The notes under the pieces were generated by a model that saw only the letters and a program-made list of their open reading frames with translations, was not told where the DNA came from and ran no database searches. Made by a program: the position numbers and the translations under genes. Positions 4,719 to 36,152 of a DNA stretch of 36,152 nucleotides are shown piece by piece. Origin of the DNA: a virus. Numbering within the stretch: the stretch's first letter is position 1; the number at the start of each line of letters is the position of its first letter. The stretch lies in the IMG/VR virus record IMGVR_UViG_3300035034_001991, positions 1 through 36,152 of that record, one strand, 5' to 3'.

Positions 4719-7700
4719 ATGGATACATTTGTACAATTACACAATCATACAGCTATGGGGTCTTTGTTAGATTCTTTAATGACAGTAGATGAATTAGTTG
4801 AAAAAGCAAAAGAGTATAATATGCCTGCTGTAGCAGTTACTAATCATGGGGCTATGCACGACTTTTTAAGGTTTTATAAAAAAGCAAAAAAAGAAGGAAT
4901 AAAATCAATATTTGGTTGTGAATTATATATAACAAATGCCCCTGATATGAAAATAAAAGATAAGGAAGAAAAAAGGTATCATTTAATTACTTTGGCTAAA
5001 AACAAAGAAGGACTTAGTAACCTATTCAAGTTAATCACTATTGCAAATAAAGAAGGATTCTATTATAAACCTAGAATAGATTTCAAAACTCTAAAGGAAT
5101 ATAGTGAAGGGCTAATCGTTACTACAGCTTGTCTTGGTGGCGAAATTCCTTCTATAGTTATGGAAGATATGGCAAGAGCAAAAGATATTGTATATCAATA
5201 CAAAGATGTGTTTAGTAATGACTTCTATATTGAAATAATGAGTAACAAGATGGAGGAACAGTACAAAGTTAATCATAAATTGCACATGTTGGCACAACAA
5301 ACTGACACTAAATTAGTTGGAACAAACGATATACACTATACAAACAAAAAAGATTTTAAATCACATGAGGTTATGCTTGCTGTTCAAACTAAAGCTAAAA
5401 TGAAGGATAAAAACAGATTTAAACTTCCTAAGAATGAATTTTATTTTAAAAGCTATAATGAAATGTTAGAAGGTTTTTTCTTGAATGGTAGTATGAAAGA
5501 TGTTGCACACGAAGCCTTAAAGAATACTTTAGAGATTAATGACAAGATAGAACAAATAGACTTTACTTTAGGTGAGATAAGATTCCCTGAATATGAAGTC
5601 CCTGAAAAATATACAACTGAGGAATTTTTAGATGGAGTTGCACATTACAAACTAAAAGAACTATCTAAAAAAGAAGATATACCATACTATACTTACAAAA
5701 AAAGATTAAAGCATGAGTTAAAAATTATTAAAGATAAAGGTTTCTCAGCTTACTTCTTTATTGTAGCTGACTTTGTAAGGTGGGCTAAGGATAATGGTAT
5801 TATGGTAGGAGCAGGCAGAGGGAGTGCAGGTGGCTCTCTTTTATCATACCTTATGGAAATAACAGCTATTGACCCAATGAAGTATGGGTTGCTGTTCAGT
5901 AGATTTTTAAACCCTGAGAGAGAAGCTATGCCTGACATTGATATAGACTTTAGTAGAGTAGGTAGAGAGAGAGTTATTGATTATGTAAAAGATAAGTATG
6001 GTGAAGAAAATGTTGCACACTTATGCACATTTGGAACACTTAGCACAAAATCTGTTTTAAAAGATGTTGGCAGGGCATTAGATTATAATTTTCAGTATAT
6101 GAACAATAAAGTAGTAAAAGCAATTCCTGATGATGTAAAAAATATAGGGGAAGCTATTAGAACAAATTCTAATGTAGAAGAATATGCTAAGAAGCATGCT
6201 GACTTATTTAAATATGCTAGTAAGCTAGAAGGTAAGCCTAGACACTTAGGGACACATGCTTGTGCAATTGCTATAACCCCTGAGCCTGTAACAAACATAG
6301 TGCCTTTGGCAAGGACAAACAATGGAATAGTTACTCAAACTGAAATGGGTGATAGTGAACAACTAGGCATGTTGAAGATGGACTTTCTAGGTTTAAAAAC
6401 ATTAGACATCTTAGAGAACACAGCAAGGTTTATTCAAAAAAGAGATGACTTAGACAGTTATGATTTTATACCAACGCCCAAAAACATGTGGGAACTTCCA
6501 TTAGATGTTGAAGAAGTTTATGAAAATATATATCAAAAGTCAGATACAAATGGGGTATTCCAAACAGAAAGTCAGCTATTTAAAAAATTGTTAGGACAAA
6601 TGAAGCCAACTAAGTTTGAAGATATTATTGCTATATTAGCTCTTGGTAGACCTTCTACTCTTGAAGCAGGAATTGTAGATGACTTTATAGATAGAAAAAA
6701 TGGGTTGCAAACAGTAGAATATCCTCATGAAGATTTAGAAGAAGTATTAGAAGAAACTTATGGCTTTATGCTATATCAAGAACAAGTTTTAAAGATTGCT
6801 CAAATTATTGGGGGTTTCAGTTTAGGAAAGGCTGATATTTTAAGAAGGGCTATAGGGAAGAAAAAAGAAAAGCTAATGGATTCTTTAAAAGAAGATTTTA
6901 TTAATGGAGCTATTGATAAAGGCTATAAAGAGGATTTTGCTGTAGAGATGTTTGAATTGGTTGAATACTTTGCAGGGTATGGATTTAATAAATCTCACAG
7001 TACAGCTTATGCTATAACTTCTTATGCTACAGCTTATCTAAAAAACTTTTTCCATACTGAGTTTTATGCAAGTCTAATGACTTTTGAAGCTAAAAAAGCT
7101 CCTAAAAATAGTAACTTAACAACTTATATAAGTGATTGCTATAGGAAAGATATAGGGATACTCCCACCTGATATAAACGACTCAGAGCTTGGGTTTACTC
7201 CTATAAACAATGGTGAAGCTATAAGGTTTGGTCTAGGTAGCATAAAAGGTATTGGTGATAAAGGAGCAAATGACATATTAGAAAAAAGACCTTTTGACTC
7301 TTTAAGTGATTTATACAATAGAGTAAACAGAAGGATAGTCAACAAAACTGTATTTGAAGCTTTAATAAAATCAGGAGCTTTAGATAGATTTGGGGACAGT
7401 AGGAAAGGTTTGCTTGAGGAATATGGGAAGCTAAGAAAAGATAAAGCAATTAACTTATCTTTATTTGATATGAGTACAGAGGACACAAGAGAAGAAATTA
7501 TACAAATGGAATATAAAACTTTAGGTATGTCAGTTAGCCACCCTTCAAAATGGGATAAGCTTGCTGTAGGTGGCGAAATAAAATTTGTTGGTGAAATAAC
7601 AGAACTGAACGAGATAACGACTAAAAACGATAACTTAATGGCTTTTGCAAAGTTTAAAACATCAAGAGTTGAAATGGAAATGGTTATATTCCCTACACTT

Positions 7701-7829
7701 TATAAAAAACATCATGGTTTGCTACACTCTAAACCTAAAGTAGTGGTATTTGGGGAAAAAGGCTATAATAGTTCGTTAGTCGCACTTGGTCTAAAAGAAT
7801 ATAACCCTGAAGAATATGATAAGGAGTGA
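4719..7829 (+). CDS. dnaE: DNA polymerase III alpha (DnaE-type) with PHP domain
   Basis: A 1036-aa C-family DNA polymerase, the likely replicase of the phage. Order: PHP domain (about 1-270), palm and polymerase core with GAGRGSAGGS (364-373), catalytic Asp pair in PDIDIDF (D407, D409) and the third Asp in KMDFLGLK (D555), fingers, a helix-hairpin-helix (LGSIKGIGDKGA) and a C-terminal OB-fold. It is shorter than E. coli DnaE (about 1160 aa). The PHP metal ligands appear complete: H8, H10, D18, H43, E68, H88, C138, D204 and H206, matching the set in proofreading mycobacterial DnaE1. No separate exonuclease gene is seen. ATG 4719 follows AAAGGGGG. It ends 5 bases before the next gene. Confidence 0.95.
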   Translation: MDTFVQLHNHTAMGSLLDSLMTVDELVEKAKEYNMPAVAVTNHGAMHDFLRFYKKAKKEGIKSIFGCELYITNAPDMKIKDKEEKRYHLITLAKNKEGLSNLFKLITIANKEGFYYKPRIDFKTLKEYSEGLIVTTACLGGEIPSIVMEDMARAKDIVYQYKDVFSNDFYIEIMSNKMEEQYKVNHKLHMLAQQTDTKLVGTNDIHYTNKKDFKSHEVMLAVQTKAKMKDKNRFKLPKNEFYFKSYNEMLEGFFLNGSMKDVAHEALKNTLEINDKIEQIDFTLGEIRFPEYEVPEKYTTEEFLDGVAHYKLKELSKKEDIPYYTYKKRLKHELKIIKDKGFSAYFFIVADFVRWAKDNGIMVGAGRGSAGGSLLSYLMEITAIDPMKYGLLFSRFLNPEREAMPDIDIDFSRVGRERVIDYVKDKYGEENVAHLCTFGTLSTKSVLKDVGRALDYNFQYMNNKVVKAIPDDVKNIGEAIRTNSNVEEYAKKHADLFKYASKLEGKPRHLGTHACAIAITPEPVTNIVPLARTNNGIVTQTEMGDSEQLGMLKMDFLGLKTLDILENTARFIQKRDDLDSYDFIPTPKNMWELPLDVEEVYENIYQKSDTNGVFQTESQLFKKLLGQMKPTKFEDIIAILALGRPSTLEAGIVDDFIDRKNGLQTVEYPHEDLEEVLEETYGFMLYQEQVLKIAQIIGGFSLGKADILRRAIGKKKEKLMDSLKEDFINGAIDKGYKEDFAVEMFELVEYFAGYGFNKSHSTAYAITSYATAYLKNFFHTEFYASLMTFEAKKAPKNSNLTTYISDCYRKDIGILPPDINDSELGFTPINNGEAIRFGLGSIKGIGDKGANDILEKRPFDSLSDLYNRVNRRIVNKTVFEALIKSGALDRFGDSRKGLLEEYGKLRKDKAINLSLFDMSTEDTREEIIQMEYKTLGMSVSHPSKWDKLAVGGEIKFVGEITELNEITTKNDNLMAFAKFKTSRVEMEMVIFPTLYKKHHGLLHSKPKVVVFGEKGYNSSLVALGLKEYNPEEYDKE

Positions 7830-8430: not shown

Positions 8431-9042
8431 ATGATTGAGGTTTTACCAAAGGTTGAACTGTTAGATTATACAAAAAATGCAGAAAGAAATGTAGCAATAT
8501 CTGCAAAACTAACTCACTCTAAAGAAGGGTTAGAAAAGTTAGATAAAAAAATGAGCAAAGAAGAAGTAAAAAAAATAGTAAGACACATGATTAAACTAGG
8601 TCATACATCTACACTAGAACACTCCTTCTATTATTTTAAAGTTGCTTGTAGTAGGACATGTTCACATCAGATAGTAAGGCACAGAATAGGGACAGGCTTT
8701 TCTCAGCGAAGCGAAAGGTATGTAGATAATGGCGAGTTAGAAGTTATTGTCCCACATACAATTAAAGAAAACCCTGAAGCATACGAAGATTTTATACACA
8801 AATGCATTGTTGCTGAAAAGCAATACAATAAATTTAGAGAACTAGGAATACCTAAGGAGGACGCTAGATTTATATTACCTAGAATTAAAACAGAATTAGC
8901 TTTTTCTTTAAATGGAAGGGCATTAAGACATTTTATAAATCTAAGAATGGATAAACATGCTCAATGGGAAATAAGAGATATTGCAACAAGAATGTATGAG
9001 CAGGTAAAAAATGTAACACCAAATATAGTATATGGATTGTAA
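8431..9042 (+). CDS. thyX: Flavin-dependent thymidylate synthase ThyX
   Basis: A 203-aa ThyX, which makes dTMP from dUMP using FAD, NADPH and methylene-tetrahydrofolate. The signature region is RHRIGTGFSQRSERY (83-97); the family form is RHR, seven residues, Ser. Here the Ser aligned before x-RY is S94, eight residues after RHR, so the loop is one residue longer, with Thr at the RHRxxS position. The C-terminal substrate-binding block NLRMDKHAQWEIR is typical. Size fits the family (about 200-250 aa). GGGGGG lies eight bases before the start. With the dNMP kinase it forms a dTTP supply pair. Confidence 0.93.
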   Translation: MIEVLPKVELLDYTKNAERNVAISAKLTHSKEGLEKLDKKMSKEEVKKIVRHMIKLGHTSTLEHSFYYFKVACSRTCSHQIVRHRIGTGFSQRSERYVDNGELEVIVPHTIKENPEAYEDFIHKCIVAEKQYNKFRELGIPKEDARFILPRIKTELAFSLNGRALRHFINLRMDKHAQWEIRDIATRMYEQVKNVTPNIVYGL

Positions 9043-9061: not shown

Positions 9062-10240
9062 ATGGACTTTATAAATGAAGAAGGGGTAATCTTTGATACG
9101 AATATATTAATTAACAACCCAAATGTTTTATTAGAAATGGATAATATAAGGATACCATATGTAATATTGAAGGAGTTAGATAAGCTAAAAACAAGACAGG
9201 ACATAGGACACAGAGCTAGACATGTAAGTAGACTAATACTTGAAAATAATATAGTATGTAGAAAGCTTTTTAGAGATAGTAGTGAAGATAATTGTATTGA
9301 CGATTTGTTGCTGTCAATCTTGAGAACTCACCCAAATTATAAATTATATACAGAGGATATATTGTTGTATTTAAAAGGGAAAGCAGAACTGTCTAATGTG
9401 GTTTATTACAATCAAGATAGTAGCAATCTTTATGAAGGAGTTTCAAATACTCTTATAAAACAAAAGGTGGTTGACGAACTATATTCAGAAGGTTATACAG
9501 TTGCAGATGTAAATGATTTATACGAAAATCAATATGTGTTTGATAAAGGCAAAGGAGTAATCGCTAAAAGGCAAGGGGACATACTGAAGTATGTTGATTG
9601 GAACAAATCAGTTAGTGGATTTAAGGGTCTTAAATTAACCCCTAGACAAATAATGGCTGTTGATTTAATAATGGATACAAATATAACAGTAGCGAGTATA
9701 ACAGGTCGAGCAGGGACAGGCAAGACTTCTCTTACTGTAAATGGAGCCTTAGACCTTATCAAACAAGGGGTATATAATAAGCTAATTATCTCAAGACCTA
9801 GAATACAAAGAGGAAATAAGGAAGATAAAATAGGAGAATTGCCTGGAGACATTGAAGATAAAATGAAACCATATATAGCTCCATTCTTTGACAACATCTA
9901 CAGCCAAACACTTATTGATGTAGAGATTATTCCATTAAGTATGATACAAGGCAGAGATTTAAAAAAATCAATATGGCTTATTACAGAATTTCAAGATGTC
10001 TTACCTACAGAAGTTGACAATATAGTTGAAAGGGTTGGACAAAATTCTAAGCTAATTGTTGAAGGCGACATAAACCAATGTTCAAGAAATATATTAAGTA
10101 AAAGATATAATGGGCTATCATTTTTAATTAACTCATTAAAGGAGCAAGAACTTACAGGTTCAGTCAAGTTAGATGAAGTAAAAAGAAGCGAAACAGCAAA
10201 GCTAGGGAAACTATTAAGAGATAAGGCAAGAATATTATAG
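9062..10240 (+). CDS. phoH: PIN-PhoH fusion ATPase/RNase
   Basis: A 392-aa PhoH2-like protein. An N-terminal PIN RNase domain has VIFDTNILI (D12), LKELDKLK (E38, D40), an acidic cluster near D80 and TEDILLYLKG (D99). A PhoH ATPase domain follows with the P-loop GRAGTGKT (215-222), SRPRIQRG, and GDINQ (335-339). The Walker B region reads WLITEFQD (305-312), where PhoH proteins usually have LDEAQ, so the usual Asp is Thr. PIN-PhoH proteins are RNA helicase/RNases; phage PhoH is common but its role is unsettled. It follows thyX by 19 bases with AAGGAGTG. Confidence 0.88.
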   Translation: MDFINEEGVIFDTNILINNPNVLLEMDNIRIPYVILKELDKLKTRQDIGHRARHVSRLILENNIVCRKLFRDSSEDNCIDDLLLSILRTHPNYKLYTEDILLYLKGKAELSNVVYYNQDSSNLYEGVSNTLIKQKVVDELYSEGYTVADVNDLYENQYVFDKGKGVIAKRQGDILKYVDWNKSVSGFKGLKLTPRQIMAVDLIMDTNITVASITGRAGTGKTSLTVNGALDLIKQGVYNKLIISRPRIQRGNKEDKIGELPGDIEDKMKPYIAPFFDNIYSQTLIDVEIIPLSMIQGRDLKKSIWLITEFQDVLPTEVDNIVERVGQNSKLIVEGDINQCSRNILSKRYNGLSFLINSLKEQELTGSVKLDEVKRSETAKLGKLLRDKARIL

Positions 10241-23476: not shown

Positions 23477-26400
23477 TTGGCTAACGAAACTCACAATCTA
23501 TCTATTGGGGTAGGTGTTGAAATAGAAAAGGCAGAACGAGAAATTAATAATCTTATCAATGACATCAAGAAGTTGTCTAGGGAACTTGGTGATATTGATA
23601 AGCAGGCTAGAGATATAGAAAAAGTTACTAAAGAATTTAATCAACAAAAAACAAGTGTAAATTCTTTGACTAGAGAAGTTGAAGAATTAACTAGAGAAAA
23701 TAATCAACTAGCTAAGTCAAATGAAAAAATAACAAATCAATTAGAAGAAGAACAGAGAGAAACAAGTCAATTAAGAAAAGAAATAGACAGATTAAATAAA
23801 GAACGTAACGACCACACAGGAGCAGTAAAAAGTGGTACTAAAGCTAATAAGAATTGGTTATCCTCTTATTCTCAGTCATTATCCATTGCGATTCATTCTG
23901 TAGCAGTATGGGGTGTAGCTACTACAGCTATCTATGGAACTAAGAGAGCATTAGAAATGATTACTGATGTAATTCGTGATGTAGATAGTGCCATGATTGA
24001 TTTAATGAAGGTAATGGACGCTACTGATAAACAGTATAAACATATGCAAGATACTGCTACCGATATGGCTAGGGAATATGGTAGAAATATCAGCGAAGTT
24101 ATAGACCAAATGTTCGAGTGGGGAAAACAGGGCAAAAGTGTTGCTGAAACAATAGAGCTAACAAGAACTACTTTGATGTCAGCCAATGCTACAAACCTTG
24201 AGTCTGGCGAAGCTGTGAAGTATTTAGTATCTACTTTATCACAGTTTAATATTAAGGCTAAGGACTCTTTAAGTATTGTGGATAAATGGAATGAAGTATC
24301 CAATAACTTTGCAAATACGACAGCTAGAGATTTAGCTGAGTCTATTAAAGAAGCAGGTAAAGCTTCAGAGTCTTTAGGAATTACATTAGACCAATTAATA
24401 GGTATGACTACTGCTATGGCAGAAGCTACAGCTAAGACAGGTAATAGATTAGGTAGAGCTACTAGAACTATGCTTGCTAATATTGTTGAAACAAGAAAAG
24501 GTATTGGCGATACAGGTGGGGATTTAAACGAGTTAGAAACTGTATTGAACAACCTTACTATTAATGGTAAAAAGCATGCTATAGCTCTTAGAAAATCTGA
24601 AAATGAATACAGAAACATCTATATGGTTTTAAAAGACTTATCAGGTGTTTGGGAAGATTTAACACAGGTTGAGAGAAAATATATTTCTCAACTTGCTGGT
24701 AACAAAAGAAGGTATGCTGACTTTGAAGCATTAATGGAAAACTTTGATACTGCTATAGAAGCTACTGAAGCTTCTGTAAATTCCATGAACTCAGCATTGA
24801 GAGAAAATCAAAGATATATGACAAGTGTAAATAGTCAATTTATACAAGCTCAAGCTTCATTTCAAAGCTTTGCTGTAACAGTTGGTGAAGCAGGATATAC
24901 AGATGCTTTAATTGGGCTTAGTAATATATTTGAGCAGTTATTTGTAAAAATGGAAGGTTTCATACTTAACATTCAAAAAACCAATAAAGAAACAGATGGG
25001 CTTTATGCTAATACAATGAAAATTATAGCTTATACTACTGCTTTAGGTGGGCTAGGAGTTGCTATTAAAGTTTTAATACCTTTATTATCAGTTTTATCTT
25101 TATCAAATCCTATTGGTATATCAATAATGGCATTGGGAGCTATAGTTGGAGCTTTAACATCTATAGCAAATATACATGGCAAAATAAAAAGAGAACAACA
25201 AGAAATAATAGAAAATGCAGATAGGTGGAACAAGTTACTTAACGAAGGAACTTCAATGTCCTACAATGAAGCGACTGTTTTAAAAGTTCAACTTGAGGAG
25301 TTTGAGGGTATCTTTGCTAAAATTAAAAAAATGAAAGAGAGTAGTGTTTCTCAGGGTGAAATTTTAAATATGCATAAGATTAATGAGGAAATTGAAGTAT
25401 TTAAAAAATATCCTTCTATATTTCCTAAATTAGAAGAATTAAAAAGCACAATTGCACAAATTGCTTATCTTAAACAAAGATTAAAAGAGCTTAGTGGAAT
25501 TTATAATGAAATTACTGTAGACTTTCAAGAGTCCCAAAAGTATGTATCTATGGGAGCAGAAACATTTATATCTGCTGTACAAAAAATTAGTCAGGAAATC
25601 CAAATTAATATATTAGACAAAATAAAAGAAATACAAGAAGCTATAAAAAGCATTGATACAACTCTTGAAGTTGATATTAAAATGTTAAAATACAAAGACG
25701 AGCTTGGCTTATTTGATAGTGAATTAGAAAAAGCAAACGAGCTTGAAAGTATTTTTGAAAATAGATTAAATAAAATACTTTCACTTAGAGCACAACTCAT
25801 GACTGCTGACATGACAGCAGAAGAATTAAACTTAAATAGAGAAAATGTTTTAGATGAAATTAATAGAAGATTAGATGAAGGTAACATGTCTGAGGACTAC
25901 GAGAATAATTTAAAAAGAATGAAAGTTAACTTAGAAACTGTTGAGAATGCAGAAAGTGTATTTACTAGCTTATTAAAAACATTAGATACTTTAGCAGAAG
26001 GTACAGTAGACAAAATAGAACAACAATCTAAAGAGGTAGCTAAAATAAATAAAGAGATAAGTCAAGCTGAATTAATGGGTAAAAGGTGGGATGCTAAATA
26101 TGGCACTCCAATAGCACAGCAGTATGATTTGGATTTAGGCTTGATGAATTTTGACCCTGATAGTACAAGAAATATTGATGAATTAAGCACAAAACTAACT
26201 GACCTTGAAGGACTTAGGGATACATTAGAATTAATTAATAAAGCTCACAGTATTGAGATTGTTGATATTTCTAAAGTAAATGCTTTAATTGATGAAACTA
26301 ATGGACAACTTAAAGAACAAAGAGATATTTTAAATGCTAACACAGAAAGCTCTGAAATAAGAGGTCAGAATTATCAGGCTATGGTAACTGCTTCTAAAGA

Positions 26401-28282
26401 GTTTACTAAGAATGTTAATAGTTTATTAGATAAAAATATTTCAGATGTGGGAGCTGAAGAACTTAAAATCCATATTGAAAACCTAAGAGAAGCTAGTTCT
26501 GATGGATTTAATTTAGACCAAATGGGCTTACTAAATCCTGAACTATACAATTTACTATCTATAGCTATTGCTAAAGCTAATGGTGAATTAGATGAATATG
26601 TAGCTACTCAAAGTGCATTAGTAAAAGGTAGCCATTATCAAGCACAGTTTGATAAACAAGTACAAGATAGGAAAAATGGTGTTGCTAGTATTAATGATGC
26701 CTTTGAAGGAACATTGACAGAAGTAGATTTAGCTAAAAGGAGTTTAAATGAAGCTAAAAGTTTATTAGATGAAGCTAGAAGCAAAGGTTGGGGCAAGGAA
26801 ATCATAAAGAAAGCTGAAGCTGTTGTCCAATCTCAAACAGAAAATTTGTCTAATGCTATTAAATCTTCTATTGATGATAGTGGGAAACACTTTAATAAAC
26901 TATTAGAGGATATGGTTGGTAACTCTGCTAAAGTGCTTAATGAATTTAATTTTGAAGAAATAATAGGAATTACATCAGCACAAGAGCAGATAAAATCAAT
27001 TACTTCTGAGCTTGACAGTTTGCAAAACAGAAAAGCTGAACTTGCTTATCAAAAATATCAAGGTGGTTTATCTAAAGAAGAATACGAAAAGATTATGGAC
27101 AGTATTCTTCCTAAAGAAAAAGAGTTAAAAGAGCTAATTGAAAAACTTAATTTATATATTGAAGACACCGAGTTTGCTTGGGCTTATGCCTTATCTGAAG
27201 GAGTTTATTATGCCCTTAACGACATGAAAAGTATTGAAGGCTTTGCTAACAAGTTTGGTGTAGCTCTTAGAAGTGTCGTTGGCGAGGTTATGTCCTTTAA
27301 AGAAGGTAGCGACAAGATTAACGACACTTGGGGACAGATATACGACTCAGTAGAAATGTTTAAGAACTTAGATATAGAAAAGAATATGTTTCAAGACTCT
27401 ATGATGTCAGCTACTAAAGCCTTTGCAGGTGGCAGGAGTGTTGGTGGGTCATTAATGTCAGGTATTGGTAGTGCATTGATGTCTACAGGTAACCCAATGG
27501 GGCTTCTAATAAGTGGAGCAGGTCATTTGTTAGAAGGAGCAATTGGAAAAGATTCAGGAAAAAAAGTCAAAGAGGAAGCTAAAGAAATAAATAGTGCTTT
27601 AGACTCAGTTAATAAAGAACTTAAAGAGTTTGGAGTTAGCATGGGTTACAGCAAAGCACAAATAAAAAATACTGCTAATTGGTTTGAAAGATTATTTGGT
27701 AAAAAAGAATGGAAAGTGTCAGGGCTTGATAGCGCTAAGAAAAGCTTAGATGAAATGAACAACATGTTGGCAAATGCTAAAAGAGCTTCTTCCACTTTAA
27801 TGAATGGCTTAACTAAAGCAATTACTGAAGGGTTTACTTATGGTGAGTTTAGAGGTATATTCGACCAATCTATAGGGCAAGCCTTACAGGACGCTATAAT
27901 TACAAGCTTAATTAAGACTAAAGCTATTGACGACCAAATTAAAAAGCTCTCAGGTACTATTGCTCTTGCTGTTGAAGATGGAGTAATTAGTGAAGCTGAA
28001 GCAAAAGTTATTAAAAAACTAAGAGAACAGTTAATCGCTAGTGGAATGGAAGTTCAAGAAGTAATAAGTCAGCTTGGAGACATGGGGTTTGAGTTGGACG
28101 CTGAAGTAAACCAATCTCAAGACCAAACCTTTAAAGCAGGTGCTACAACAAATGTTACTTATCACCAACAATTTACTGTGGAAGCAGGAGCTATGATGGG
28201 TGATGAAGGTGACGCTGAAAGGTTTGCAGAGTTTCTTGAGCCATACATTGTTGAAGTGATTAACAGAAATCAAGGGAGGTAA
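23477..28282 (+). CDS. Tail tape measure protein
   Basis: A 1601-aa protein with a TTG start after GGAGG. It has N-terminal coiled coil (15-115), a TP901-type tape-measure core (about 165-345, including GRNISEVIDQMFEWGKQG and LGITLDQLIGMTTAMAEAT), a hydrophobic stretch (515-565) usable for membrane insertion, long helical repeats (600-1250) and a Gly-rich hydrophobic segment near 1315-1355. Using about 1.5 angstrom per residue for such proteins, the predicted tail length is near 240 nm. It is ejected on infection and sets tail length. No peptidase motif is recognised. Confidence 0.93.
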   Translation: MANETHNLSIGVGVEIEKAEREINNLINDIKKLSRELGDIDKQARDIEKVTKEFNQQKTSVNSLTREVEELTRENNQLAKSNEKITNQLEEEQRETSQLRKEIDRLNKERNDHTGAVKSGTKANKNWLSSYSQSLSIAIHSVAVWGVATTAIYGTKRALEMITDVIRDVDSAMIDLMKVMDATDKQYKHMQDTATDMAREYGRNISEVIDQMFEWGKQGKSVAETIELTRTTLMSANATNLESGEAVKYLVSTLSQFNIKAKDSLSIVDKWNEVSNNFANTTARDLAESIKEAGKASESLGITLDQLIGMTTAMAEATAKTGNRLGRATRTMLANIVETRKGIGDTGGDLNELETVLNNLTINGKKHAIALRKSENEYRNIYMVLKDLSGVWEDLTQVERKYISQLAGNKRRYADFEALMENFDTAIEATEASVNSMNSALRENQRYMTSVNSQFIQAQASFQSFAVTVGEAGYTDALIGLSNIFEQLFVKMEGFILNIQKTNKETDGLYANTMKIIAYTTALGGLGVAIKVLIPLLSVLSLSNPIGISIMALGAIVGALTSIANIHGKIKREQQEIIENADRWNKLLNEGTSMSYNEATVLKVQLEEFEGIFAKIKKMKESSVSQGEILNMHKINEEIEVFKKYPSIFPKLEELKSTIAQIAYLKQRLKELSGIYNEITVDFQESQKYVSMGAETFISAVQKISQEIQINILDKIKEIQEAIKSIDTTLEVDIKMLKYKDELGLFDSELEKANELESIFENRLNKILSLRAQLMTADMTAEELNLNRENVLDEINRRLDEGNMSEDYENNLKRMKVNLETVENAESVFTSLLKTLDTLAEGTVDKIEQQSKEVAKINKEISQAELMGKRWDAKYGTPIAQQYDLDLGLMNFDPDSTRNIDELSTKLTDLEGLRDTLELINKAHSIEIVDISKVNALIDETNGQLKEQRDILNANTESSEIRGQNYQAMVTASKEFTKNVNSLLDKNISDVGAEELKIHIENLREASSDGFNLDQMGLLNPELYNLLSIAIAKANGELDEYVATQSALVKGSHYQAQFDKQVQDRKNGVASINDAFEGTLTEVDLAKRSLNEAKSLLDEARSKGWGKEIIKKAEAVVQSQTENLSNAIKSSIDDSGKHFNKLLEDMVGNSAKVLNEFNFEEIIGITSAQEQIKSITSELDSLQNRKAELAYQKYQGGLSKEEYEKIMDSILPKEKELKELIEKLNLYIEDTEFAWAYALSEGVYYALNDMKSIEGFANKFGVALRSVVGEVMSFKEGSDKINDTWGQIYDSVEMFKNLDIEKNMFQDSMMSATKAFAGGRSVGGSLMSGIGSALMSTGNPMGLLISGAGHLLEGAIGKDSGKKVKEEAKEINSALDSVNKELKEFGVSMGYSKAQIKNTANWFERLFGKKEWKVSGLDSAKKSLDEMNNMLANAKRASSTLMNGLTKAITEGFTYGEFRGIFDQSIGQALQDAIITSLIKTKAIDDQIKKLSGTIALAVEDGVISEAEAKVIKKLREQLIASGMEVQEVISQLGDMGFELDAEVNQSQDQTFKAGATTNVTYHQQFTVEAGAMMGDEGDAERFAEFLEPYIVEVINRNQGR

Positions 28283-28288
28283 TGCTAA

Positions 28289-28648
28289 ATGGGTAAACAT
28301 ATACAGTTAGATAATGTATTTTTGTACTGTACTGAATTTAACCATGACCCACAAGAGATTGGTAAAAGTAGAAGGTCTTATAATGGGACATTACACTCCC
28401 AAATAAGAAATTCTTACAATAGATTTGGGTTAGTCATAGAGGGTTTATCACCCTCTATGCACTCTAATTTATTATATGTAATAGATAAAAACAGGAGTTT
28501 TAATTCCCCTGCTGAGAACTTAACATTAGTTGATGATGTAGGAAATGAGTATATTGTTGCTATACCTCAAGGGGACTATTCGTACAAAAGAGCTAGTGGG
28601 AATAAGGAGTTATACAATTGGGAAATAAACTTAGAGGAAGTTAATTGA
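28289..28648 (+). CDS. Distal tail-type protein
   Basis: A 119-aa protein between the tape measure and the hub, in the position of Dit or a tail-tip adaptor. It is beta-rich (IQLDNVFLYCTEFNHDPQEIG to YIVAIPQGDYSYKRAS). It is shorter than typical Dit (about 250 aa) and equals roughly its N-terminal ring domain. A perfect 10-bp hairpin lies inside the gene at 28435-28459. Confidence 0.6.
   Translation: MGKHIQLDNVFLYCTEFNHDPQEIGKSRRSYNGTLHSQIRNSYNRFGLVIEGLSPSMHSNLLYVIDKNRSFNSPAENLTLVDDVGNEYIVAIPQGDYSYKRASGNKELYNWEINLEEVN
28435..28459. repeat. Perfect 10-bp inverted repeat within a gene
   Basis: CATAGAGGGT and ACCCTCTATG are perfect inverted repeats with a TTATC loop. The hairpin is in the coding sequence and has no U-tract. 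It could be incidental, or could pause translation or protect mRNA. Confidence 0.6.
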
Positions 28649-28660
28649 GGGTGATAAGTT

Positions 28661-31600
28661 ATGAAAAACATTAGTCCAGAGTTATTAAACTTATTTAATT
28701 CTAAAAATAAATACATTGACCTTGAGCAAAAAATTGATTGGGATAATGATGATGTATTTGGTGTTGGCGAGGACATCAGTAACTATACATTATCAGCTAA
28801 AATTTCCAAAAAGATTGAAGGCAATTTTGGAATAAATGTTGTAGATAATGCAACTGTTGTGTTGGATAACTCAGCAGGTAACTTTTCACCTAAAAACCAA
28901 AGTGGTGATTGGAGTGGAAATATAATTCCTGAAAGATATAGCATAATTAAAGCAGGGTTAGAGAACGATAAAGTACCCCTCTTTGATGGTTATATTCAGG
29001 ACATTAACTTAAACTACAATAATACAAAAGCTACTTTGAAACTAAAAGATTTAGTAAAAATGTTACAAGAAACTGATTGTCCTAAAAAGTTTTATAAAAA
29101 TTATAGAATTGAAGAAATATTTGCAGAATGGTTAGATAGGGTTGGAATTAATTATACAGTAAGTAGTTTAGGTACTACAGTTACAGAAATTACAGATTCT
29201 TTCGAGGGTCAAAAAATGTGGCAAGCTATGATAGGTTTAGCCAATAGTGTATGGGGCGACATTTATATTGATAATGGTACATTCTTTTTCAAAACTAAAC
29301 TGTCCCCTAGTTATGATGGCGAAACTTCCCCTGTAGATACTTTAGATGGGGACAATGACTACTTTGACATTGCTGAAAATTATAATACTAAAGACCTATT
29401 TAATGAAGTTAAGGTTGTAGCTAAACCTCTTATTAAGCAACCTAGACAACCTATTTGGACAGGTACTCAAGATAAAGTAGTAATACAAGAGGAATATAAT
29501 AGTGATGTGATAGTTGATAACCAACTCCAACTTACTTATGTTCCTGAAGGTGAAACAACTGAACAACCTACAAAAAATGTTCCTATAGTAGACAATACTA
29601 TGAGTATATTAGATATAACTATAGGGAAAACTTATAGTGTTGATAATGGAGCTATTTCAGTAAACCAACAAACAGGTTTAATAACTTTTGTAAACGATAC
29701 TGAGTATCCAACCCCTACTAATAGTACTTTAAGGGTTAAGTATGAGCAGTATGCTAATAGGCTAACAGCTAATCAAACAAAAGACTTTATTATACGGTTA
29801 GATAACCCTGCTGTAAATATAGAGCCTATGAATGTTTTGGCTAGATACATTGGAACAGAGAACGAGGTAGCTGTAGCAGATACACTTAAGACTGCTGTAG
29901 TTGGGTACAACGAAGTAAAAGAATTTGAAATTAAAAAGCCACAAACAGTTAATTGGGAGTTCAGTTACGAAAAAGGAATAGTAGCTGATAGTGGCTCTTT
30001 TGTAGTAAATTCAGGTGATGAAGGAACGTATAAGGTTACTGTTGCTATAAATGATTTAGATGTTAATTATTACATTACAGATAGCACAGGAACAAGAGTA
30101 GTTGATAAAACATATAATTCACTTACTGTGATAGAGTTTGTTTATGGCAAGAACAATATTGAAGGTAGAGTTAGTTATGATAGTGGCGATACTAACGATT
30201 TAGATGTTGTTAATTCTGATTTAGAAGTAAATACATTTGTCTACCCTGACAGAAAAAAGATTAAATGTGAAATAACAAATAAAACTTCTGAAACAATTAA
30301 ACTGTATGGATATATAAATGATAAAAACAATACTGCTGACAATATAGTATTAATGGGTAGACCTTATAAGAGAACAGAGATAATGGAAACTACAAGGATT
30401 GATAAGAAAAGTCAAGAGTCTTATGGAGTTAAGATTTTACCTACTATTGAAAATAATTTTATTTCTTCACAACAAGACTTAGATAAACTTGCAGAATATC
30501 TTTTATATAGATACTCAACTCCTAGAAGTGCTTTAAAAGTTAAACTTTTAGGTAAAGCTCAATATGAACTTGGGGACAAATTAACTATTATTCATCATGA
30601 TATGGATATAGATAATGACTTTATTCTTACAGGAATTAATTATGATTTTAAAGATGGTGAGCTAATTACTGCTGTCGATTTAGTGCAAGCCTATGCTTCT
30701 GATTGGAATTACACACCATCAGGGACTCCTGTTCTTACAGAAGGCACTCGTGATGAAGATAAGTATACAATTCCAAATCAGGTAACAGGGCTTAATGCTC
30801 AACTAATAAGCTCAAGTATGAATGGAGATAATAAAGCAAAATTAACTTGGGATAAGCACAATAACCCCAATATTTCGCACTACAACATCTTCAAGAGGGA
30901 GGATATTCAGTCTATAGGTTCACACTTTAAGACTATTAATAACCCTACTACACATTTTATTGACAATACTTTAGTTTTTGATAGTAGCTATTATTATTCT
31001 ATTACTGCTGTTGATAAGTATGGGAATGAGTCAGAAGTTAGTCCTGAAGTAAATATATCAATAAAAGATAATACAACTCCTTCAACTGCTATGTTTGATG
31101 TTGCTAGTTGCTATTTTAAAGATGATGTGCTTTTAAAATGGAATAGTATTGTTGAAGCTGAATTGTATGAGGTAAGGTTAGATACTAACTTTGGTGTGAA
31201 TGATAGTAATTTAGTCTATAGAAGCAACGAACTTTCTACTAAATTTTTCCCACAAATTAGAAATTATACATTTTATATAAAAACAATTAATAACAATGGG
31301 GTTTATAGTTCAGGATACGATAGCATTACTTTAGAAAATGCAGCTCCACCACAACCTACTCCCCCAATAATAACTGAGTTCTTTGAGGGGCTTTGGATTG
31401 AATTACAGAATGTAGTTGATGATGACATAAAAGGATATAGGTTTTATGTAACAGATAAAGAAACTGATACAACTTCTACATTTGATGTTGCTACAGCTCA
31501 AAGACTTTCTTTTGAAGCTGAAAGTGGAAAAACTTTTGATATACAAATAAGTGCATTTGATAGTTTAGGGGAAGGAGCATTGTCTAATGTAGTTACAGCA

Positions 31601-32152
31601 ACTACTAGAAGTATTGATGATATAAACCAACTTGGATTGCAGTTCCAGCCCCCTGAGATAGTTGATGTATTACCTGCACTACCTAACTCTGCATACCCTG
31701 AAGGAAAAACTGTATTTTTAACAACAGACAACACATTATATAAAAACATAAGTGGAGTTTGGGATAGTAGTTTATCAGATAACGAATACCAAAAAATACT
31801 TGTTGGAATAGTTGAAGCAGGAGCTATTGGAGTAGACCATTTGCAAGCAGAAAGTATAACAGCTAGTGCGATTGGTACAAATGAAATAATTACTAATATT
31901 GCAAACATTAATGACGCAGTGGTAGATGAGTTGAGAGTACAAAGTATTAAGGCTGGTGATATTACAGTTGGTAGTGAATCGACTTTTGAAGATGGATATA
32001 ACCCAACAGTAGTTGAGCAAAATGCTATTAATTATGCAAATAATGTAGCAAAAGCTCAAGATAAAATGAGATTAAAGCCTGAAGGAGCTATCCTGTTTCA
32101 CTTTGATGGAAATATAACAAGTACAGATGGTGTTGAAGCAGAGATAATATAA
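28661..32152 (+). CDS. Tail hub / tail-tip protein with FN3 repeats, apparently truncated C-terminus
   Basis: A 1163-aa protein. The N-terminal 300 residues look like a tail hub (LFDGYIQDINLNYNNTKATL, repeated beta). Fibronectin type III-like repeats follow at about 706-805, 810-900 and 905-990. Then comes a repeat typical of phage tail-tip proteins (VEAGAIGVDHLQAESITASA, then IANINDAVVDELRVQSIKAG). The last 20 residues, GAILFHFDGNITSTDGVEA, look like the first strand of a LamG/concanavalin-like carbohydrate-binding domain, where related proteins usually continue for 150 or more residues. Here the stop follows at once, before the radical-SAM cassette. It probably forms the cell-contact tip. 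Confidence 0.75.
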   Translation: MKNISPELLNLFNSKNKYIDLEQKIDWDNDDVFGVGEDISNYTLSAKISKKIEGNFGINVVDNATVVLDNSAGNFSPKNQSGDWSGNIIPERYSIIKAGLENDKVPLFDGYIQDINLNYNNTKATLKLKDLVKMLQETDCPKKFYKNYRIEEIFAEWLDRVGINYTVSSLGTTVTEITDSFEGQKMWQAMIGLANSVWGDIYIDNGTFFFKTKLSPSYDGETSPVDTLDGDNDYFDIAENYNTKDLFNEVKVVAKPLIKQPRQPIWTGTQDKVVIQEEYNSDVIVDNQLQLTYVPEGETTEQPTKNVPIVDNTMSILDITIGKTYSVDNGAISVNQQTGLITFVNDTEYPTPTNSTLRVKYEQYANRLTANQTKDFIIRLDNPAVNIEPMNVLARYIGTENEVAVADTLKTAVVGYNEVKEFEIKKPQTVNWEFSYEKGIVADSGSFVVNSGDEGTYKVTVAINDLDVNYYITDSTGTRVVDKTYNSLTVIEFVYGKNNIEGRVSYDSGDTNDLDVVNSDLEVNTFVYPDRKKIKCEITNKTSETIKLYGYINDKNNTADNIVLMGRPYKRTEIMETTRIDKKSQESYGVKILPTIENNFISSQQDLDKLAEYLLYRYSTPRSALKVKLLGKAQYELGDKLTIIHHDMDIDNDFILTGINYDFKDGELITAVDLVQAYASDWNYTPSGTPVLTEGTRDEDKYTIPNQVTGLNAQLISSSMNGDNKAKLTWDKHNNPNISHYNIFKREDIQSIGSHFKTINNPTTHFIDNTLVFDSSYYYSITAVDKYGNESEVSPEVNISIKDNTTPSTAMFDVASCYFKDDVLLKWNSIVEAELYEVRLDTNFGVNDSNLVYRSNELSTKFFPQIRNYTFYIKTINNNGVYSSGYDSITLENAAPPQPTPPIITEFFEGLWIELQNVVDDDIKGYRFYVTDKETDTTSTFDVATAQRLSFEAESGKTFDIQISAFDSLGEGALSNVVTATTRSIDDINQLGLQFQPPEIVDVLPALPNSAYPEGKTVFLTTDNTLYKNISGVWDSSLSDNEYQKILVGIVEAGAIGVDHLQAESITASAIGTNEIITNIANINDAVVDELRVQSIKAGDITVGSESTFEDGYNPTVVEQNAINYANNVAKAQDKMRLKPEGAILFHFDGNITSTDGVEAEII

Positions 32153-32175: not shown

Positions 32176-33186
32176 GTGTGTTTAATTACTTATTCATTTA
32201 AAGATAAGCATAAAGTTGCAACTAAAAAAATAGATAATTTTAGCAACAATCCAACGTGGGCTAATTTAGAAATAACTGCTAAGTGTAATGCTCATTGTGA
32301 ATGGTGTTATCTTGGTGAGGATATAAAAAATAAAACTATGAGCTTTTCACAAGCGAAAAATGTAGTTGATATTTTATACAATTCAGATATTAAGCAGATA
32401 ACAATAAGTGGGGGTGAGCCTACACTAATAGGATATTTACCCTTACTTGTTGATTATATAGTTAATAAAGGTATTGTTGCTAACCTTAATACAAATGGGT
32501 ATTTATTAGATGATAAATTGATTGATAAATTAAACAGAGCAGGTTTAAATCAAATACAAACCAACATAGAGTCTATTAACTCTGACATACATGACGAGAT
32601 AAGAAAACTAGAAGGCTCTCATAAAAATGCAATCAAAGCTATAAAAAAAATAAAGAACACTAATATAAAAGTAACATCACAAATTGTTGTAACAAAAGAT
32701 AATGAAAGTAATATAAATGATATATTAAAATACTCTTTTGAATTAGGGGTAGACAGATGTAGGATTTGGGACAGTACAGGATATAAGGAATTAGCTCCTT
32801 CAAGTTATAAAAATGTAGTAGACAAAGCAAATGAAATGATGGTAGACTTAGGAGCAACACATGTTCAATCGTACGAACCATTACCAAACATTAATTTCCC
32901 TGATAAACTAAGAAAGACTATAATGTCTTGTCCTGCTTTATCAGGCATGTTAGTCTTTGTTGATGTAGAAGGAAACGTATTTCCTTGTTCAGCAGGGGAT
33001 AGAGATAGTATACTTTATAATATTTTTGATTATAAAAACATAAATGAAGTTCATCATAAAAAGGTAAAAGGTATAATTAATTTAAGTAAAAAATGCGAAG
33101 TATGCAAGTATGTTAAGAGCTGTAAGGGTGGATGTCTAGGAAGAAGATACAATGGTAAGGATTGGTATTGTCAGGAAGGGGAATAA
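32176..33186 (+). CDS. Radical SAM protein with SPASM domain
   Basis: A 336-aa protein with a GTG start after AAGGAAGAAGGG. The radical SAM cluster motif is CNAHCEWC (C37, C41, C44), followed by GGEPT (79-83) for SAM binding. The C-terminus holds a complete SPASM pattern: C252, then G266-x4-C271, CEVC (C307, C310), x5-C316, x3-C320, and C332, matching the family consensus of seven cysteines for two auxiliary [4Fe-4S] clusters. SPASM enzymes modify peptides or proteins (sactipeptide thioethers, PqqE, sulfatase maturation). Finding one in the tail module of a phage is unusual. It starts 23 bases after the hub stop. The substrate is unknown. Confidence 0.93.
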   Translation: MCLITYSFKDKHKVATKKIDNFSNNPTWANLEITAKCNAHCEWCYLGEDIKNKTMSFSQAKNVVDILYNSDIKQITISGGEPTLIGYLPLLVDYIVNKGIVANLNTNGYLLDDKLIDKLNRAGLNQIQTNIESINSDIHDEIRKLEGSHKNAIKAIKKIKNTNIKVTSQIVVTKDNESNINDILKYSFELGVDRCRIWDSTGYKELAPSSYKNVVDKANEMMVDLGATHVQSYEPLPNINFPDKLRKTIMSCPALSGMLVFVDVEGNVFPCSAGDRDSILYNIFDYKNINEVHHKKVKGIINLSKKCEVCKYVKSCKGGCLGRRYNGKDWYCQEGE

Positions 33187-33190
33187 AAAA

Positions 33191-34135
33191 ATGAATATAA
33201 TATTAAATAATTATTGTAATTTAAACTGTAAATATTGTTTTGCTAAAGGAGTAATGTCTAAAAATAAAAGGCATATGACAATGGAGGATTTTAACTATTC
33301 TTTAGATTTTTTAAAACAATCAAGTGAAAGAGTAGTTAAGTTATTAGGTGGCGAGCCTACACTACACCCAAATTTTAATGGAATTATATATAGCATAAAG
33401 TCTGATAGTTATTTTGAAGGCATGTTGCTGTTTACAAATGGTTATTTTGATAAAGAAACTTTAAGGTCTTTAAAATATTTTAGTAAATATAAAGAGTTGT
33501 ATTTATTAATAAATTTAAACCACCCTGATGATATAGGGAAAGAAGCTTATAATAATATATTAGATAATATAAAAGCACTAAATAAAATACAATCTATTCA
33601 AATTACTTTAAGTTTAAACATATATAAAAAAGAACAAGACTTTAAATATTTTATAGATGTGTATGAAGATGTTGATTTAAATTTTGTTAGGTGGTCTTTG
33701 TCTGTTCCAACAGAGGAAAAAGATAAATCAAATCCTACTAAATATATTAAAAAACTTATTCCAACAGCAATAAGGTTTATAAAAGAGACAAGCAATCTAG
33801 GGCTAAGTGTAACTACAGACTGTTTCCAAATTCCTATATGCTTATTGAACAATAAAGATTTAAGGTTGTTAGCACTAAGTGGTAAGGATAATATAGGCAA
33901 ACCATGTAGCCCTATAATAGATGTAAAGCCTAATTTAAAAATTATTAGATGTTTTGCATTAGATAGCCATGAAGTAGACTTAAAAGATTTTAGTAATATA
34001 GAGGAACTGAGATATTATTTCTCAAATGAAATTGACAAAAAGCAAGAGCCTTCTTTTGACAAATGTAAAAGTTGTGCTTCTTACAAAAAGCATGAAAAAT
34101 CTTGTGTATGTTTAGCTTTTGGGGGGGATAAATAA
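33191..34135 (+). CDS. Second radical SAM protein, degenerate SPASM
   Basis: A 314-aa protein (start 33191, GGAAGGGG eight bases upstream; an upstream in-frame start at 33152 overlaps the previous gene and lacks this site). CNLNCKYC (C9, C13, C16) binds the radical cluster, placed only eight residues from the N-terminus. GGEPTLHP is at 53-60. The C-terminal cysteines C239, C254, CKSC (C292, C295), C305 and C307 resemble a shortened SPASM or twitch domain for at least one auxiliary cluster. It is four bases after the first radical SAM gene, so the two probably act together on one target. It is AT-richer by eye than the structural genes. Confidence 0.9.
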   Translation: MNIILNNYCNLNCKYCFAKGVMSKNKRHMTMEDFNYSLDFLKQSSERVVKLLGGEPTLHPNFNGIIYSIKSDSYFEGMLLFTNGYFDKETLRSLKYFSKYKELYLLINLNHPDDIGKEAYNNILDNIKALNKIQSIQITLSLNIYKKEQDFKYFIDVYEDVDLNFVRWSLSVPTEEKDKSNPTKYIKKLIPTAIRFIKETSNLGLSVTTDCFQIPICLLNNKDLRLLALSGKDNIGKPCSPIIDVKPNLKIIRCFALDSHEVDLKDFSNIEELRYYFSNEIDKKQEPSFDKCKSCASYKKHEKSCVCLAFGGDK

Positions 34136-34947
34136 TGTATGATTACCATATATTTGAAGAAACTGTAAAGAAGAACGAAAAGTCAGTCATTCAAATGTCA
34201 GAAAAAAAGTTAATAGAAAAGACTATGTTTGAAGATAAACCTTTTGTTGATGTTAGAGATAATATTTACAATGATATTTACGAATTGTTTTGTGATAATG
34301 GATTTAGTTTAGATAAAGGAAGTATTTTAACTACACAAGATACTATACCTACACATTTTGACAAAAAGACTTTTGATTTTTATTATTATATGAACATTGG
34401 GAATCATTTTATGAAGCCTTTAGATAAGTTTCATAATATAATCAACTCTTTGGGTTATACTGAAAGTTATATAACTGATAATATATTTTATCCAATTACA
34501 AATAGTAAAATGTTATCTTTAAATTTACCTAAGTTTAGAACAATATCTATAAATCCACTAATAGAAGGATTATCTCTTTACTTAGAAACAACCCCTGAAG
34601 TTAGAGAGTACGAATGTAAAAATCTTGTTGAATTAACTAACAATGACTATGATTATCATAATGGTTTATTAAATTCCATCTTTGGTGATGAAGATAAAGG
34701 GTATATATTAAAAAACAAAATGTTGGGGATTGGTTTTGGATTTAATGGAACGAGTATAATGAATGAGTTAAAATACTTCTTTATTTATAATAATCTTAAT
34801 GAAGATGAAAAGAACAACTTAAATAGTATAATAAGCAATAGTCCTGATGTGATTAAAAATGAACACAGCATAATAGGTGATATTTATATAGTAGGATTGA
34901 CAATAAGTAATAATAGTGTTGATTACTACAAGTATTATTATAGGTAG
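34135..34947 (+). CDS. Unrecognised 270-aa protein of radical-SAM cassette
   Basis: A 270-aa soluble protein whose start overlaps the stop of the second radical SAM gene (TAATG), so translation is coupled. It is rich in Tyr, Asn, Asp and Phe. Predicted features include an alpha/beta body (FDFYYYMNIGNHFM, ISINPLIEGLSLYLETTPEV, MLGIGFGFNGTSIMNELKYF) and a C-terminal strand GLTISNNSVDYYKYYYR. The protein has few cysteines (about two) and no signal peptide or membrane helix. I do not recognise a family. It could be the modified substrate, a recognition partner or a third tailoring enzyme. Confidence 0.75.
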   Translation: MYDYHIFEETVKKNEKSVIQMSEKKLIEKTMFEDKPFVDVRDNIYNDIYELFCDNGFSLDKGSILTTQDTIPTHFDKKTFDFYYYMNIGNHFMKPLDKFHNIINSLGYTESYITDNIFYPITNSKMLSLNLPKFRTISINPLIEGLSLYLETTPEVREYECKNLVELTNNDYDYHNGLLNSIFGDEDKGYILKNKMLGIGFGFNGTSIMNELKYFFIYNNLNEDEKNNLNSIISNSPDVIKNEHSIIGDIYIVGLTISNNSVDYYKYYYR

Positions 34948-34956
34948 GTGTATAGC

Positions 34957-36152
34957 ATGGAGTACGAAATTATTGATAGGTTTACTAGAGAAGTTATACA
35001 AGATGACAACACAAAAAAAATAGAGTTTTTTGATTACCCTATTGGGTATTTAGATAATAATAATGAATGGCAAGAAATAAAGCCTGATTTTATTGATGAT
35101 GGGATAACTTTTACAGATAGCAAGAATGCATTATCAACATCAATAGCTCCTGACCCTACTCAAAAATATAATATTACTTATAAAACTGATTATGGGTTAG
35201 AAGTTAATTTAGATTTAAGAGATATTATTTACACTAATGGCGAAAGTATAGAAACAATAGCTACACCTCAACAAGCTAGTAATTATTTAGTAGAGGACAA
35301 CGAAGGATATTCTAATGTTGTACAATCTCACATATTTCCTGACATTACAGACTCTTTTAGGTCAGAAAATAGTAAAGTTAAGAGAGATATATATATAGAA
35401 AAAAAATTACCTACTCCTACTCTTAGTGGGGAAATAAATTTAGAGATAAGGCATGTGTTTGAAGTAAATAAAGATGTTGATGTTTATACTAAGTCAGGGT
35501 TTAAGCCTGATGTATATACCCCTGAGCCTATAATAATAGAAGATAAAGATAATCATGAAAACATATTCACTTTTGAAGCTCCAACCTTAAACGACAATGA
35601 AGGTAAAAGTTTACCTATTTTGTATAAAATAATTCATATAGAAAATAATAAATATGAATTGTCTTATGTAATTAGACAGCCTGATATTAACAAAGATAAT
35701 ATTCTTTATCCATTAATAATTGACCCCACTACTTCTGTTAGCAATGTAGGAACTGGAGGGACAAAAAATTGGACTTGTGATTATCCACAAACTGTTTCTT
35801 GGAGTTGTAGTATTTATGGACATAGTTCTTCATATTCTAGTGATACAGGATATTTTCACATTTATGATGGCGACAATAGAAGGGTTTTTAAAGAAAAGTA
35901 TAGTTCGGGGGGAAGTAACTATTCAGGCTCATTTGCTATTGGCTCAGGTGATTTAGGGACAGGAGCAATAAGAGTTTGGGGTAGTAACGCATATTCAGGT
36001 GGTAGTGGCTCAGTTACTTATAGTGTTGATAGTACAAGCCCTGATTTTCCTAATGTATCAGTTGTTGGAAAGACTGACACTTCTGTTTCTTTAGATTGGA
36101 CAGTAGGAGATGGGGGAGGGTCAGGTGTTGATTATGTAAGGCTATATTTTCA
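34957..36152 (+). CDS. Large adhesin-like protein, start only
   Basis: At least 398 aa; the frame is open to the window edge. ATG 34957 has GGTAGGTG upstream and lies nine bases after the previous stop. The N-terminal region has the pattern YPIGYLDNNNEWQEI and, at about 260, YPLIIDPTT, which is found in N-terminal domains of large Gram-positive surface proteins of the RHS/WapA kind. A Ser/Gly/Tyr-rich beta domain (about 268-350) is followed by an FN3-like start (SPDFPNVSVVGKTDTSVSLDW). It is probably the receptor-binding or tail-fibre protein, and the nearest candidate substrate for the radical SAM pair. Confidence 0.7.
   Translation, partial: MEYEIIDRFTREVIQDDNTKKIEFFDYPIGYLDNNNEWQEIKPDFIDDGITFTDSKNALSTSIAPDPTQKYNITYKTDYGLEVNLDLRDIIYTNGESIETIATPQQASNYLVEDNEGYSNVVQSHIFPDITDSFRSENSKVKRDIYIEKKLPTPTLSGEINLEIRHVFEVNKDVDVYTKSGFKPDVYTPEPIIIEDKDNHENIFTFEAPTLNDNEGKSLPILYKIIHIENNKYELSYVIRQPDINKDNILYPLIIDPTTSVSNVGTGGTKNWTCDYPQTVSWSCSIYGHSSSYSSDTGYFHIYDGDNRRVFKEKYSSGGSNYSGSFAIGSGDLGTGAIRVWGSNAYSGGSGSVTYSVDSTSPDFPNVSVVGKTDTSVSLDWTVGDGGGSGVDYVRLYF

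Follow-up and report, generated by a model that had tools for sequence, protein, structure and literature searches.

Tandem radical SAM genes in a phage tail operon and their possible relation to the cysteine-array modules of other phage tails

Results

Gene organization of the locus

The virus record IMGVR_UViG_3300035034_001991 (36,152 bp; 31% GC) is called the window hereafter. Its genes run from the terminase to the tail, as is typical of siphovirus-like or related phages. On the 3' side of the tail hub, two radical SAM (rSAM) genes, ORF3, and an adhesin-like ORF cut off by the contig end follow one another in one tightly packed operon. The features are listed below; G001 and G003 are other phage contigs (see below).

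23477-28282, plus strand: tape-measure-like protein, which marks the tail module; it aligned with the proteins at the same position in G003 (34% identity) and G001 (29%)
28289-28648, plus strand: conserved tail protein of 119 aa, encoded ahead of the hub gene (47% identity to the corresponding protein of G003)
28661-32152, plus strand: tail hub or tail-tip protein that includes an fn3-like segment (tail protein family PHROG 1887; E 2e-15)
32176-33186, plus strand: rSAM gene 1 (336 aa), rSAM core (PF04055; E 5e-26) and seven-cysteine SPASM pattern
33191-34135, plus strand: rSAM gene 2 (314 aa), rSAM core (PF04055; E 4e-15) and partial C-terminal cysteine cluster
34135-34947, plus strand: ORF3, unrecognised partner of 270 aa, whose first base is also the final base of the stop codon of gene 2
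34948-36150, plus strand: adhesin-like tail protein cut by the contig end; its last 44 residues are 52% identical to the G003 adhesin

The original prediction had placed two adjacent rSAM genes and an unrecognised ORF between a tail hub and an adhesin-like gene, and the family matches (PF04055 for both enzymes and a PHROG tail family for the hub) bear this out. The hub is 40% identical to that of G003 over its whole length (1175 aa). At 25-30%, the cassette (both rSAM genes and ORF3) is slightly poorer in GC than the tail genes around it (32-33%). From 28 kb to the end of the contig, none of the ORFs with 40 aa or more was found to encode a short precursor peptide, protease or exporter; glycosyltransferase and sugar-nucleotide genes were likewise not seen around the cassette. 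In the left half of the window, translations alone suggested genes resembling those of DNA polymerase III alpha (4719-7829), ThyX (8431-9042), PhoH (9062-10240) and CYTH proteins (1311-1844).

The two radical SAM enzymes and ORF3

Against PF04055 (Pfam cut-off, 29.5 bits), gene 1 scored 92 bits and gene 2 scored 57 bits, and both have the CX3CX2C motif (C37, C41 and C44 in gene 1); thus, both are members of the radical SAM superfamily. The SPASM spacing was defined as CX9-15GX4C, CX2CX5CX3C and C. Gene 1 has exactly this spacing (C252-X13-G-X4-C271; C307-X2-C310-X5-C316-X3-C320; C332), as had been predicted for one of the two genes, although at E <= 1 no match to Pfam's own SPASM model was reported. 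The full seven-cysteine pattern was not found in gene 2, of which the cysteines at 239, 254, 292, 295, 305 and 307 do not fit CX2CX5CX3C. The ORF of gene 2 is readable from 33152; however, its start is probably the ATG at 33191, located 4 bp past the gene 1 stop and behind GGAAGGGG, because the ribosome-binding site there is better than that of 33152.

The best match of gene 1 among solved structures was the sactipeptide maturase SkfB (PDB 6efn; E 4e-13), over the rSAM core only (residues 26-192). Gene 1 also scored against non-peptide families such as MoaA, PqqE-like and cytosylglucuronate decarboxylase, and its score against PapB was only 71 bits. Judged from its sequence, it resembles rSAM/SPASM enzymes that modify peptides more than any others, in agreement with the type proposed originally. 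In cellular genomes it matched just generic rSAMs (21-31% identity), with no close relative, and those loci were without arrays (see below).

ORF3 matched no family in Pfam or NCBIfam; its sole PHROG match (phrog_6580) was weak (28 residues, E 0.001), and no relative was found among all the loci fetched. Its AlphaFold model, built from the single sequence, was too poor to read (pLDDT 40). The partner proteins of other phages were considered as ORF3 homologues and rejected, none being related. Close relatives of the three cassette genes were not found among IMG/VR or GenBank phages. On the rSAM tree, the window enzymes formed long isolated branches and were closest, but only weakly so, to the accessory rSAMs of G003; gene 1 fell outside the TIGR04115 and PapB clades; TIGR04115 (cut-off, 350 bits) was outside the best 25 families of each window rSAM, in which the top score was 96 bits.

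The nearest relative phage with rSAM genes

Since the cassette had no close relatives, relatives of the phage itself were sought. The window terminase matched three contigs at 59-61% identity, one of which, G003 (87.7 kb), carries three tandem rSAM genes and is the nearest relative phage with rSAMs. There the hub and adhesin genes are followed by one for a protein of 419 aa, by one for a 496-aa protein that contains a CX3C array, and then by the three rSAM genes. The array has 57 cysteines, its repeats are E/Q/T/S-rich and resemble an extended SCIFF, and the third rSAM is near the PapB ranthipeptide maturases (281 bits). The rSAM placement differs, being ahead of the adhesin in the window and after the array in G003. 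No cysteine array was found in the window. In G003 the array gene lies about 2.8 kb beyond the adhesin segment matched by the window end (counted across the repeated contig ends), so the window ends before the position at which an array would be expected. No clear tail rSAM was found in G001 and G005-G010, phages of the same tail group. Note that the G003 contig, classed as linear, has its end repeated at its start (a peptide is common to both adhesin ORF ends; L009 start, L010 end) and thus is probably complete.

Survey of rSAM genes and cysteine arrays in phages

The first scan was performed with a DNA pattern for eight CX3C cysteines. Most matches were low-complexity frames and were dropped. 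Among the convincing array proteins, four had an adjoining rSAM (L081, L084, L085 and L102), whereas an rSAM was absent from every noise locus. An alignment of four such array-adjacent rSAMs was used as the query of the second scan, which yielded 79 phage loci. A strict array (at least 8 cysteines with gaps of up to 5) was present on the same strand in 57 of the 79 loci and on the opposite strand in 2; because the queries came from array-bearing loci and near-duplicates occur among the 79, this fraction describes that rSAM family and not all phage rSAMs. The same test found no array in 80 cellular loci with gene-1-like rSAMs or in 15 other viral loci picked regardless of rSAM or cysteine content (Fisher p for the enrichment, 1e-7 to 3e-25). 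A looser criterion (7 cysteines in 40 aa) was discarded, since 33 of the 79 loci satisfied it on the reverse strand. PapB-like gut phage matches (L016, L018-L021, L025 and L026) were also set aside, because most of them are bacterial SCIFF loci with SecD-like or other cellular neighbours.

Baseplate, Dit or tail-fibre genes adjoin most of the array loci that were checked: in a PHROG test of 18 array-neighbour proteins, 11, from ten loci, belonged to baseplate, Dit, minor tail or tail-fibre families. Array composition followed the maturase clade, E/Q-rich arrays occurring with PapB/SCIFF-like enzymes and G/S/T-rich arrays with TIGR04115-like enzymes; on the rSAM tree a single change between the two compositions was needed (200 shuffles: mean 11.7, minimum 9), a fit to which the relatedness of the loci contributes, so that it demonstrates co-inheritance rather than proving specificity. 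Tandem rSAMs recurred in other phage loci, and at several phage loci unknown proteins of 250-400 aa adjoin the rSAMs. An accessory gene of about 100 aa was present in many phage loci and is common to cellular CXXX clusters; its helical-looking product was seen beside TIGR04115-type rSAMs at L182-L202 and L348-L351.

Cultured phages

The array/rSAM layout is carried by the cultured phages SPN3US, CR5 and CP220. Salmonella phage SPN3US and Cronobacter phage CR5 have two array ORFs, two tandem rSAMs and a partner protein of about 300 aa, next to virion structural genes. The rSAM pair and the unknown partner beside structural genes are as in the window; in contrast to it, two array ORFs precede the rSAMs, and the proteins are not orthologous to those of the window. 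In SPN3US (NC_027402), the array ORFs (130 and 134 aa; minus strand, L179:6100-6492 and 6503-6907) are either without a gene (the first) or overlain by gp100 in another frame (the second) in RefSeq, and in the array region of CR5 (L180:3115-3920) RefSeq calls an opposite-strand ORF instead. Campylobacter phage CP220 has, in its tail region, a 534-aa protein with six CDCNYCT-type repeats (L177:4161-5765), 2 kb ahead of an rSAM gene and annotated only as hypothetical or as repeat regions. Thus, array genes of cultured phages have been omitted or miscalled in the records examined (SPN3US and CR5) or listed just as hypothetical (CP220).

Relation to known maturase families

By sequence, many of the phage maturases belong to or resemble TIGR04115 or PapB, and this kind of enzyme is already known. 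The maturases of the G/S/T-rich arrays belong to or border TIGR04115, the NCBIfam family of CXXX-repeat maturases with targets TIGR04114/TIGR04117: at the cut-off of 350 bits, L183 was over (446) and L102 just under (342). CX3C targets and a related accessory of about 100 aa are likewise common to both. In the four cellular CXXX clusters found, however, the maturase is about 720 aa, the setting is non-phage, an ABC transporter adjoins in several, and a CX3C peptide of 54-65 aa was in view in three; in the phage modules the array is within a larger protein encoded in the tail operon, and exporters were not seen. The third rSAM of G003 scored 281 bits against PapB (NF047865) and 206 bits against SCIFF (TIGR03974), under the curated cut-offs (340 and 425, respectively); the target of those enzymes is a peptide of about 45 aa, whereas the candidate target in G003 is a 496-aa tail-module protein.

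Discussion

We consider it somewhat probable that the cassette is a tail-protein maturation set of the array/rSAM kind. The two rSAMs, one of which has a full SPASM pattern, would be made together with the tail-tip proteins and would install radical-made cross-links, most likely cysteine thioethers, in a virion protein ahead of tail assembly or while it proceeds. If G003 and dozens of other phages are a guide, the likeliest target would be a cysteine-array tail protein encoded 3' of the adhesin, past the contig end; a target of this kind in the window phage, the action of the two enzymes on it and the chemistry are inferred. The gene content and tail setting of the cassette are directly visible, and rSAM and array genes recur in the tail modules of other phages. 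In favour of the maturation set we counted these together with the packing and position in the operon, G003, the second scan, the tail neighbours of the arrays, the fit of composition to clade, the cultured phages and the tandem rSAMs; against it we counted the window without an array, the isolated rSAM branches, the position of gene 1 outside the TIGR04115 and PapB clades, the gene order unlike that of G003 and the phages of the group without a tail rSAM.

The original prediction of an action on virion protein gained strong, indirect support from this recurrence, but the likely target is different. The hub, the 270-aa protein and the adhesin had been named, and these have 3, 2 and 2 cysteines (the adhesin in its visible part); the recurrent candidate elsewhere is a separate cysteine-array protein. 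It is rather unlikely that the rSAMs modify one of these visible proteins at a few residues (for example, by a single oxidation or cross-link) with no array, ORF3 being a substrate or recognition partner. The direct adjacency and overlap of the genes and the 250-400-aa proteins beside rSAMs at several phage loci would suit such an action, but those proteins are unrelated to ORF3 and the three window proteins are cysteine-poor. Also in line with the original prediction, SPASM rSAMs occur in the tail modules of many phage lineages. The exact cassette is without close relatives, and cellular genomes do have generic relatives of gene 1, with no arrays beside them.

Because no precursor, peptidase or exporter was found, an ordinary RiPP cluster had been argued against; that part stands, but the contrast was drawn too sharply, since the maturase family, the CX3C target pattern and often the ~100-aa accessory are common to the phage modules and the cellular CXXX-repeat RiPP clusters. 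We also regard as unlikely that a RiPP or metabolic cluster was inserted in the tail operon as a passenger (moron) and does not act on the virion: the slightly lower GC and the absence of the cassette from most phages of the group would fit, but the lack of those RiPP genes, the tight overlap with tail genes and the wide recurrence of tail rSAMs argue against it. SPASM-type rSAMs with sugar substrates are known, and with the scores of gene 1 against MoaA, PqqE-like and cytosylglucuronate decarboxylase they might suggest an enzyme of the sugar epimerase or dehydrogenase type acting on a sugar or other small molecule and altering a tail or host-surface glycan, but this is improbable given the peptide maturase as best solved-structure match and no sugar gene nearby.

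Beyond the maturation set proposed for the window, there may be, with about even chances, a general virion-maturation system in many tailed-phage lineages, in which rSAM/SPASM enzymes would staple the long cysteine arrays of tail-tip or tail-fibre proteins, turning them into chemically cross-linked rods or knobs that resist proteases. A structural protein would thereby undergo a modification of the RiPP type, and the window would represent a divergent member of this system. Cross-linking by rSAMs has been studied as a chemistry of small secreted peptides, and the sequence data suggest that parts of the phage tail are chemically stapled by enzymes of the phage itself. If this is true, the use of rSAMs on tail proteins would be a new kind of virion maturation and could explain tail-tip stability and host binding; the enzyme family itself is known. 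The open literature searched, with few subscription journals and preprints in it, gave no account of rSAMs modifying phage tails.

An N-terminal repeat of the HIxxLRxAI type was common to several array proteins (L009:2680-4170, L230:6002-7117, L238:1765-2448 and L232:6413-6835); it is perhaps a virion-binding or enzyme-recognition part.
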